Positions 37,495 to 39,537 of a DNA stretch of 64,000 bases are shown one piece after another. The DNA is taken from NCBI RefSeq assembly GCF_005048225.1, contig NZ_SUNI01000002.1, positions 186,001 to 250,000 of the forward strand, read 5' to 3'. A model generated the notes under the pieces. That model worked only from the letters and a program-made list of their open reading frames with translations. It did not search any database and had not been told where the DNA came from. The stretch comes from Paracoccus gahaiensis (GTDB lineage: Bacteria; Pseudomonadota; Alphaproteobacteria; Rhodobacterales; Rhodobacteraceae). Every line of letters starts with the position of its first letter. The first letter of the stretch is position 1. The position numbers were made by a program, and so were the translations under genes.

Positions 37495-38358
37495 TCAGCC
37501 GTCCAGCTTGTCCTGCGTGCGGGTCTGGAAGTCCCCCGCGTCATGGCGCTCGTGCAATTGCCCGGAGGGCTCGCCCGAGACGTTGTTGACCATGATGCCC
37601 CGCTGCACGGCGGGACGCGCGGCGATCTCGGCCTGCCAGCGGTGGACATGCGTGTAGCTTTCCGCGTCGAGGAAGGTTGCCGCCTCGCCATAGGCGCCGC
37701 CGGTGATCAGGCGCCCGTACCACGGCCAGATCGCCATGTCGGCGATGGTATAGTCCTCGCCCGCGATGAAGCGCGTCTCGGCCAGGCGCTTGTCCAGCAG
37801 GTCCAGCTGGCGCTTGACCTCCATGGTGAAGCGGTCGATCGCATATTCGATCTTGATCGGCGCATAGGCGTAGAAATGCCCGAAGCCGCCGCCCAGATAG
37901 GGGCCCGCGCCCATCTGCCAGAAGAGCCAGTTCAAGGTCTCGGTCCGCGCCGCCAGATCGGTGGGCAGGAAGGCGCCGTATTTCTCGGCCAGATACAGCA
38001 GGATGGATCCGGATTCGAACACCCTCTGCGGCGGCGATACCGAATGGTCCATCAGCGCGGGGATCTTGGAATTGGGGTTCACGCCCACGAAGCCGCTGCC
38101 GAACTGGTCGCCGTCGCCGATCTTGATCAGCCAGGCGTCGTACTCGGCGGCATGACCGGCCTCCAGCAGCTCCTCCAGCAGGATGGTGACCTTCTGCCCG
38201 TTGGGGGTCGCCAGCGAATACAGTTGCAGCGGATGGCGGCCCACCGGCAACGCGCGGTCGTATTGCGCGCCGGCGGTCGGCTTGTTGATGCTGGCGAACT
38301 GGCCGCCGTTTTCCGTGCCGGGGGTCCAGACCTTCGGCGGGGTATAGTCGTCGCTCAT
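37495..38358 (-). CDS. yghU: glutathione S-transferase family protein (YghU-like)
   Basis: A 287-residue protein of the Nu-class glutathione transferases, which in E. coli (YghU, YfcG) act as glutathione-dependent disulfide reductases. It has a 40-residue extension (YTPPKVWTPGTENGGQFASI), then the thioredoxin-fold domain with LYSLATPNGQKVTILLEELL, NPNSKIPAL and ESGSILLYLAEKYG. The C-terminal helical domain contains YTIADMAIWPWYG. The Nu-class active site uses threonines near the TPNG turn rather than Tyr or Cys. The ATG at 38358 has AGGA seven bases upstream. Confidence 0.9.
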   Translation of the reverse strand: MSDDYTPPKVWTPGTENGGQFASINKPTAGAQYDRALPVGRHPLQLYSLATPNGQKVTILLEELLEAGHAAEYDAWLIKIGDGDQFGSGFVGVNPNSKIPALMDHSVSPPQRVFESGSILLYLAEKYGAFLPTDLAARTETLNWLFWQMGAGPYLGGGFGHFYAYAPIKIEYAIDRFTMEVKRQLDLLDKRLAETRFIAGEDYTIADMAIWPWYGRLITGGAYGEAATFLDAESYTHVHRWQAEIAARPAVQRGIMVNNVSGEPSGQLHERHDAGDFQTRTQDKLDG

Positions 38359-38422
38359 GGCATATCCTGTCATTGACCTTGGACCCAAGGATGGGGGCGG
38401 CTCCGGCGAACATCAACGGGCT

Positions 38423-38451
38423 TTGCAAATGTTCCTATTATGTTCTATCAT
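38423..38451 (+). promoter_or_regulatory. sigma-70 promoter with LexA (SOS) box in the spacer
   Basis: TTGCAA (38423-38428) and TATCAT (38446-38451) are separated by exactly 17 bases. The spacer holds GTTC-CTATTAT-GTTC (38431-38445), a perfect match to the alphaproteobacterial LexA site GTTC-N7-GTTC. The predicted transcription start falls on or near the ATG at 38458, and no ribosome-binding site is visible, so the message may be leaderless. Confidence 0.7.
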
Positions 38452-38457
38452 GTCCCC

Positions 38458-39537
38458 ATGCTGCCGCCCCGCAATCCCGACCTGCGCCTGAAGGCCCGTG
38501 GTGCCGATACCCGCCCCGAGGGGCGGTTCGAGCGGCTGACCCACCGGCGCGAGGATGATGGCTGGGACATTCCCGAGGATCAGACCCTGCTGCGCACCGA
38601 GGTGACGATCGAGGAGCCGCGCAGCATCCTCACCCGCAACAGCTCGCCCGATATCTCCTTCGACCGCTCGATCAATCCCTATCGCGGTTGCGAGCATGGC
38701 TGCATCTACTGCTATGCCAGGCCCAGCCATGCCTGGCTGGGCCTGTCGCCGGGTCTGGATTTCGAGACCAAGATCACCGCCAAGCCTCAGGCCGCCGCGC
38801 TTCTGGCGCGCGAACTGGCCCGGCCTCGCTACAAGCCCGCGCCCATCGCGTTGGGGACCAACACCGATCCCTACCAGCCGGTCGAGGCGCAGCTGGCGAT
38901 CATGCCCGGCCTGCTGCGGGTGCTGCGCGACTGGAATCACCCGGCCACGCTGATCACCCGCGGCGCGACGGTGCTGCGCGACATCGACCTCTGGGCAGAA
39001 CTGGCGGCGCGCGATCAGGCCGCCGTGGGGGTCAGCATCACCACGCTGGACCCCGATCTGGCCCGGGTGATGGAGCCGCGCGCGCCCACCCCCGCCACCC
39101 GCCTGCGGATGATCCGAGAGCTGTCCCGCGCCGGCATCCCCGTGCGCATCATGGTGGCTCCGGTCATCCCCGTCCTGACCGAGCCCGAGATCGAGGCGAT
39201 CCTGACCGCCGCCCGCGAGGCGGGGGCCAGCACCGCCAGCATGATCGCCCTGCGCCTGCCGCACGAGGTGGCGCCGCTGTTCCGCGACTGGCTGGAGCGG
39301 CACCGCCCCGGCATGGCCGCGCATGTCATGAACCGCGTGCAGGCGATGCGCGGCGGGCGCGACAACGACCCGCGATTCGGGCATCGCTTCAAGGGCGAGG
39401 GGGTCGAGGCCGATCTGGCTCGGCAGCGCTTCCGGCTGGCGCGCAGGCGGCTCGGCTATCGCGAGGGCAGTCCGCCGCTGGATTGCTCGCGCTTCGGGCC
39501 GCCGCCCCGGGCCGGGGACCAGCTGTCGCTGTTCTGA
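38458..39537 (+). CDS. PA0069-family radical SAM protein (SplB-related)
   Basis: A 359-residue radical SAM enzyme with the cluster motif CEHGCIYC (Cys78, Cys82, Cys85), followed by YARPSH and later IALGTNTDPYQPVE. This is the PA0069 branch of the group that includes spore photoproduct lyase (SplB), a DNA-repair enzyme. The substrate of the PA0069 branch is, as far as I know, not established. The ATG at 38458 was chosen over 38440 because the latter lies inside the promoter and SOS box. The SOS box is a direct hint at a DNA-damage role. Confidence 0.9.
   Translation: MLPPRNPDLRLKARGADTRPEGRFERLTHRREDDGWDIPEDQTLLRTEVTIEEPRSILTRNSSPDISFDRSINPYRGCEHGCIYCYARPSHAWLGLSPGLDFETKITAKPQAAALLARELARPRYKPAPIALGTNTDPYQPVEAQLAIMPGLLRVLRDWNHPATLITRGATVLRDIDLWAELAARDQAAVGVSITTLDPDLARVMEPRAPTPATRLRMIRELSRAGIPVRIMVAPVIPVLTEPEIEAILTAAREAGASTASMIALRLPHEVAPLFRDWLERHRPGMAAHVMNRVQAMRGGRDNDPRFGHRFKGEGVEADLARQRFRLARRRLGYREGSPPLDCSRFGPPPRAGDQLSLF

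Follow-up and report, generated by a model that had tools for sequence, protein, structure and literature searches.

How can a gene of the SOS response be repressed, transcribed and translated from almost the same few bases? The question is posed by a 64,000-nucleotide (nt) stretch of Paracoccus gahaiensis DNA (contig NZ_SUNI01000002.1, positions 186,001 to 250,000 of the forward strand; hereafter the window), in which the gene for a radical S-adenosylmethionine (SAM) protein of the PA0069 family starts directly behind a promoter that carries a putative LexA operator, or SOS box. Probably, this is an SOS gene with a LexA-blocked promoter and a leaderless mRNA, encoding a PA0069 enzyme likely to act on damaged DNA or nucleotides. 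LexA, bound to GTTC-N7-GTTC, would cover the interval between the −35 and −10 elements and block RNA polymerase; upon DNA damage, RecA-stimulated self-cleavage of LexA would free the promoter; transcription would begin at the A of the ATG, so that ribosomes would directly use the 5′-terminal AUG of a leaderless mRNA; and the enzyme, with a fold like that of spore photoproduct lyase (SPL), would most likely have damaged DNA or nucleotides as its substrate and do without the cysteine hydrogen donor of SPL. Repression, transcription start and translation start would be fused in about 40 bases, a simple testable case. From the comparisons that follow, we infer that LexA binds the box, that damage induces the gene, where its transcript starts, how this transcript is translated and what the enzyme acts on.

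What do the bases themselves say? The original prediction had read an exact GTTC-N7-GTTC between the hexamers TTGCAA and TATCAT, a predicted transcription start that coincides with the ATG, and no ribosome-binding site, and each of these readings holds. The box, GTTCCTATTATGTTC (38431–38445), takes up 15 of the 17 nt that separate the two hexamers (38429–38445); TATCAT is followed by 6 nt and then by the ATG at 38458, the A of which is the predicted +1 by promoter geometry; and GGAG, GAGG and AGGA are all missing from the 16 bases 5′ of this ATG. Another in-frame ATG, at 38440 inside the box, is not supported because 28 of the 58 loci from the same genus have an in-frame stop at most 60 nt upstream, with no start codon between this stop and the ATG; protein similarity among the relatives starts at the ATG at 38458, with MLPPRNPDE. 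Taken by itself, the box is not significant: the window holds one match against 0.82 expected from shuffles, and the genome 79 against 56 for the reversed control pattern. Since about one match per window arises by chance, the evidence is comparative.

Is the box kept where the gene is kept? Upstream regions were compared in three sets: 58 loci of the same genus, the window's own included; 78 further loci (20 + 58) of 75 families across the class; and 80 named loci. The gene was matched in 79 of 101 relatives, which, with a 50-residue C-terminal fragment (G001) left out, gave the 58 same-genus and 20 further loci; 163 of 289 class genomes matched, and 58 loci were taken from these, one per family except for four from the window's family. 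A box was counted when an exact GTTC-N7-GTTC lay no more than 350 nt 5′ of the conserved coding block. Conservation among relatives, on which the original prediction had staked itself, is what this count reveals: the box is present at 57 of 58 same-genus loci, at 67 of 78 class-wide loci (18/20 + 49/58) and at 68 of 80 named loci. The lone miss in the genus (G013) has its box with one mismatch. Eleven of the 12 box-less named loci bear beta- or gammaproteobacterial names (Burkholderia, Caballeronia, Duganella, Gallionellaceae, Nitrosomonadales, Methylophaga, Solimonas and a gammaproteobacterial metagenome-assembled genome), and the twelfth is identified no further than Pseudomonadota. In every Burkholderiales member of the named set (six of six), the region upstream of the gene instead contains a perfect CTGT-N8-ACAG, which is the LexA motif of Beta- and Gammaproteobacteria (PMC3323433); thus, the control of this gene appears to have tracked the shift in LexA motif. 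The other six box-less named loci have neither GTTC-N7-GTTC nor CTGT-N8-ACAG. Could the box of the window still be a fortuitous match in an unrelated promoter, given that about one is expected per 64 kb? Conservation at 67 of 78 loci from 75 families and the Burkholderiales boxes speak against this, leaving it a probability of virtually nil.

Two of the loci that have neither box, from Gallionellaceae and Nitrosomonadales (L151 and L176), contain no exact known LexA box and share a palindrome-like AGAACG(A/T)TCGTTCT, possibly another LexA-type motif, which lies 113 nt (L151) and 49 nt (L176) before the conserved coding block.

Where, then, does the message begin? The distance from the start of the box to the in-frame ATG clusters at two values. 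In the genus, it is 26–28 nt at 49 of 57 loci, 38–39 nt at seven and 48 nt at one; across the class, the first in-frame ATG lies at 38–42 nt in 42 of 67 loci, at 26–29 nt in six and elsewhere in 17, and is absent from two. Reading frames were counted at these distances: ATGs at 38–42 nt are in-frame 47 times and out-of-frame never at the 67 class-wide loci, and those at 26–28 nt are in-frame 49 times versus two in the genus and 31 times versus two at the named loci. The two spacings are best read as two operator positions on one predicted promoter, in which the box either fills the spacer or contains the −35 element (GTTC-TTGnnn); with both, the −10 hexamer usually sits at −12 to −7 of the in-frame ATG. 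A TAnnnT exactly at −12 to −7 is present at 39 of 58 same-genus loci, against about 0.6% expected from composition, and at none of 54 control genes (recA, lexA and uvrA). At 43 class-wide loci with the longer spacing, the column profile of the −10 hexamer has T in 23, A in 28 and T in 29; in the genus, the −35 element begins with T (−35) in 48 of 58 loci and has G as its third base (−33) in 43, and 56 of the 58 have no Shine-Dalgarno-like motif. The distance from −10 to in-frame ATG, repeated over families, supports the leaderless mRNA that the original prediction had proposed, with a start site that is predicted.

A promoter scorer, applied to the same loci, places +1 at most 2 nt from an in-frame ATG in 43 of 57 same-genus, 44 of 67 class-wide and 37 of 68 named loci; over 40 rounds of shuffling, the counts averaged 13.6, 18.4 and 14.8 and never exceeded 21, 28 and 21, respectively. 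Shine-Dalgarno-like motifs occur in 2/43, 2/44 and 0/37 of the loci placed in this way and in 0/14, 5/23 and 18/31 of the remaining ones. When the box is ignored, the scorer's count is 38 of 58 for the radical SAM gene, 1 of 21 for recA, 0 of 16 for lexA and 0 of 17 for uvrA. These controls, all of the same genus, are 21 recA, 19 lexA and 17 uvrA genes from 30 loci each; the rule used to choose the ATG yielded none at three of the lexA loci, leaving 16 to be scored.

Must a LexA-controlled gene be leaderless at all? Transcription might start further upstream and produce a short or long leader that lacks a Shine-Dalgarno motif, a common arrangement in that leadered mRNAs of Alphaproteobacteria often do without one (24.6% of Caulobacter initiation sites have it; PMC4117421). 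This alternative, which gains from the Rhizobiales described below, is unlikely: a leadered gene would have no obvious reason to keep the distance between operator and ATG over many families, yet this distance clusters at two values, each with a −10-like hexamer at −12 to −7, and that placement is missing from recA, lexA and uvrA. Leaderless messages are, moreover, familiar in the class, with 375 known in Caulobacter crescentus, or 9.6% of coding sequences (PMC4117421), and 171 in Sinorhizobium meliloti (PMC3616915); those are mapped transcripts, whereas our start site is a prediction based on promoter geometry that is conserved.

Several observations nevertheless weigh against the proposal of a leaderless SOS promoter. 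Some come from Rhizobiales. Of 24 loci with this label, 22 have TA at the place expected for −10 (26–28 nt after the start of the box), so the promoter appears to be kept; at 21 of the 24, however, the ATG is preceded by a Shine-Dalgarno-like motif, and 20 of these ATGs lie 58–132 nt from the box (in Bartonella, at locus L139, this distance is 39 nt). As most Rhizobiales loci have a Shine-Dalgarno leader behind what looks like the same promoter, leaderlessness is evidently not essential; the leader was either gained in Rhizobiales or lost elsewhere. The box, too, has exceptions, since 11 of 78 class-wide loci lack an exact copy. Six of the 11 have a one-mismatch site within 250 nt, some of which may be there by chance (one, G087, keeps the 39-nt spacing), and five have not even such a site within 250 nt; one of the latter, G327, has a GGAG motif before its ATG. 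Across the class, ATGs at 26–28 nt are in-frame five times and out-of-frame five times, so that the operator position in the spacer, and with it the shorter spacing, is well supported only in Rhodobacteraceae, and the longer spacing in the rest of the class. The −35 element is weak: in 36 of the 58 loci of the genus, its second base (−34) is G and not T. The loci of the genus are not independent of each other. Finally, the scorer uses E. coli weights; it fails to place +1 within 2 nt of an in-frame ATG at 14 of 57, 23 of 67 and 31 of 68 loci, and it places the recA +1 1–6 nt before the chosen ATG in eight of 21 genes (4–6 nt in seven), which shows its limits: 14 of the 21 recA genes have a Shine-Dalgarno-like motif.

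Does the genome have the regulon to which such a promoter would belong? In the window's genome, lexA, recA and uvrA are each preceded by the same box; LexA is thus present, and the operator of the radical SAM gene overlaps the promoter, as in the alphaproteobacterial LexA (SOS) regulon. Orientation varies from gene to gene: in the 57 of 90 control loci examined (L247–L336), recA and lexA of the genus have the operator reversed (GAAC-N7-GAAC relative to the gene), and uvrA and the radical SAM gene have it as GTTC-N7-GTTC. Two lexA upstream regions of the genus (L288 of G002 and L301 of G013) contain two overlapping boxes 11 bases apart, with three GAAC half-sites in register. One and the same box in reverse orientation, GTTCCTGTTTTGTTC, precedes three separate ImuA-like genes of the window's genome (L337, 1938–1952; L338, 1081–1095; L339, 1500–1514; on contigs C9, C30 and C34), and behind one of these genes lies another with weak similarity to Y-family polymerases. 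The genome would thus appear to hold three copies of a mutagenesis cassette, although the name ImuA is provisional because the genes score about 60 bits against a cut-off of 150.

The SOS half of the proposal has a precedent in print. LexA control of a “splB” of Alpha- and Betaproteobacteria, called a predicted photolyase, was proposed in 2012 on genomes that include Paracoccus denitrificans and Rhodobacter sphaeroides (Sanchez-Alberola et al., PMC3323433). That splB is likewise a radical SAM gene with a LexA box in its promoter, in a study in which Alpha- and Betaproteobacteria use different LexA motifs; it is probably a member of the PA0069 family, because the P. denitrificans homolog (L113) has the box. 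What appears to be new here is the conserved leaderless layout and the missing cysteine; the accessible text of PMC3323433 contains neither leaderless transcription nor the operator position, the PA0069 family or the cysteine. SplB or a radical SAM protein is also named in other SOS regulons (PMC8565304, PMC7739468), and SplB-like proteins have been linked to ImuB-C operons (PMC3765255). A term search for radical SAM, photolyase, splB and photoproduct came back empty for a Dinoroseobacter LexA paper (PMC6473078) and for a 2026 Caulobacter SOS paper (PMC13384398). A search made mostly at the level of titles and abstracts found in print neither a leaderless SOS promoter that is shared widely and has its operator at either of two positions, nor the missing cysteine of the PA0069 family, and the literature searched contained no paper that joins splB with leaderless and no report of a function for the family. 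PA0069 itself presumably belongs to the LexA regulon of Pseudomonas aeruginosa.

What kind of enzyme would be made? The original prediction assigned it to the PA0069 branch of the group that contains SPL. The branch stands: the protein matches the NCBIfam model NF033668 (PA0069 family) over its full length, residues 12–359 on positions 1–348 of 348, with 469.5 bits against a cut-off of 360 and nothing contrary found; the model is a “hypoth_equivalog” without stated function. Kinship to SPL is borne out by the fold and fails in the catalytic residues. An AlphaFold2 model built with 37 family members has a predicted local distance difference test score (pLDDT) of 82.7 and a predicted template modeling score (pTM) of 0.81, with most of the first 43 residues below 50. 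In both structure comparisons, SPL (PDB 4FHC, 4FHF, 4K9R) is the best match (Z 19.8, root-mean-square deviation 3.3 over 263 residues); the next family follows at Z 15.4, other radical SAM enzymes being at this value and below. The protein also shares with SPL the CxxxCxxC motif, whose three cluster cysteines are present in 37 of 37 aligned members, and a tyrosine before the third of them, a residue that SPL puts to use (PMC3742179). A direct sequence link, in turn, was sought and rejected: SPL is absent from the PDB sequences that the family profile retrieves at E values up to 10, and hhalign pairs the family with SPL over a partial match of 68 columns with a probability of 5.95%; the relationship therefore rests mainly on fold, and identity to SPL is 13–14% over the structural alignments.

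Is it, then, a photoproduct lyase? SPL depends on a fourth cysteine, C141(Bs)/C140(Gt), as its essential hydrogen donor (PMC3742179), and none of the 37 members has a fourth conserved cysteine, the next commonest cysteine column being filled in 12. Aligners disagree on which residue stands opposite C140 (two of three runs give N135, the other P127), so only the family-wide lack is used here. With this cysteine missing, the enzyme may work on DNA, yet it does not qualify as a photoproduct lyase. That it nonetheless repairs spore photoproduct as a true SPL would be consistent with the nearest solved fold, with the splB name and predicted photolyase activity of PMC3323433, with weak matches of 19 of the 37 members to TIGR04070, the model for SPL (E values of 10 or less, the best 1.3e-6), and with the retention of Y96(Gt) as Y84 and a tyrosine at the Y98(Gt) position of the window protein. 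Against these stand, besides the cysteine and the profile search, the Y99(Bs) column, which is Phe in 29 of 37 members and Tyr in the window protein, and the score of the window protein on TIGR04070, 10.5 bits (E 0.21) with a cut-off of 400; this makes an SPL activity quite improbable. The missing cysteine means that neither the name splB nor the idea of a photoproduct lyase should be adopted untested.

A bolder extension, which we hold to be possible and offer tentatively, is that the class outside Rhizobiaceae has largely kept a leaderless SOS message, perhaps the ancestral one, with only the operator moving between −35 and spacer, and that the enzyme is a radical SAM protein for DNA lesions whose chemistry differs from that of SPL because it lacks a cysteine donor. 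Such retention would suggest that selection favors an mRNA on which intact 70S ribosomes can initiate in damaged cells. Rhizobiaceae would be the lineage in which the same promoter has a leader. Genes of the splB type recur in SOS regulons with quite different LexA motifs (PMC3323433, PMC8565304).

Could the box belong to another gene? A disulfide-bond oxidoreductase gene diverges from the radical SAM gene (Table 1), and, if it starts at 38358, the two share an intergenic region of only 99 bp, so that the box might serve the neighbor, or both genes. However, the box lies inside the radical SAM gene's own promoter, and the neighbor is found within about 1.5 kb at only 16 of 30 same-genus loci (farther from the gene in two of the 16), all 30 of which have the box at the radical SAM gene; the box is therefore unlikely to belong to the neighbor, and the chance that it serves this gene is very slight.

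Table 1. Features of the radical SAM locus and its divergent neighbor, in window coordinates.
Feature	Position	Strand	Basis
YghU-type glutathione-dependent disulfide-bond oxidoreductase, divergent	37495..38358	−	NF008731, 504.5 bits; context only
−35-like hexamer TTGCAA	38423..38428	+	sequence reading
LexA operator (SOS box, predicted) GTTC-N7-GTTC, in promoter spacer	38431..38445	+	sequence, conservation
−10 hexamer TATCAT, at −12 to −7 of ATG	38446..38451	+	sequence
ATG start codon, its A also the predicted +1 of transcription	38458..38460	+	promoter geometry
PA0069-family radical SAM protein, 359 amino acids	38458..39537	+	NF033668, PF04055, SPL-like predicted fold
CEHGCIYC, CxxxCxxC for [4Fe-4S] cluster, residues 78–85	38689..38712	+	37-member alignment

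Two records among the loci compared are unusual in themselves. In one same-genus genome (G031:C1:1486842-1487917), the radical SAM gene was matched as two overlapping pieces, possibly owing to a frameshift or an assembly error. A record titled Enemella evansiae (L138, JAFKDC010000016.1) contains a copy of the gene that resembles those of Rhodobacteraceae and shares their box and spacing; Enemella is an actinobacterial genus, and the record may be mislabelled.
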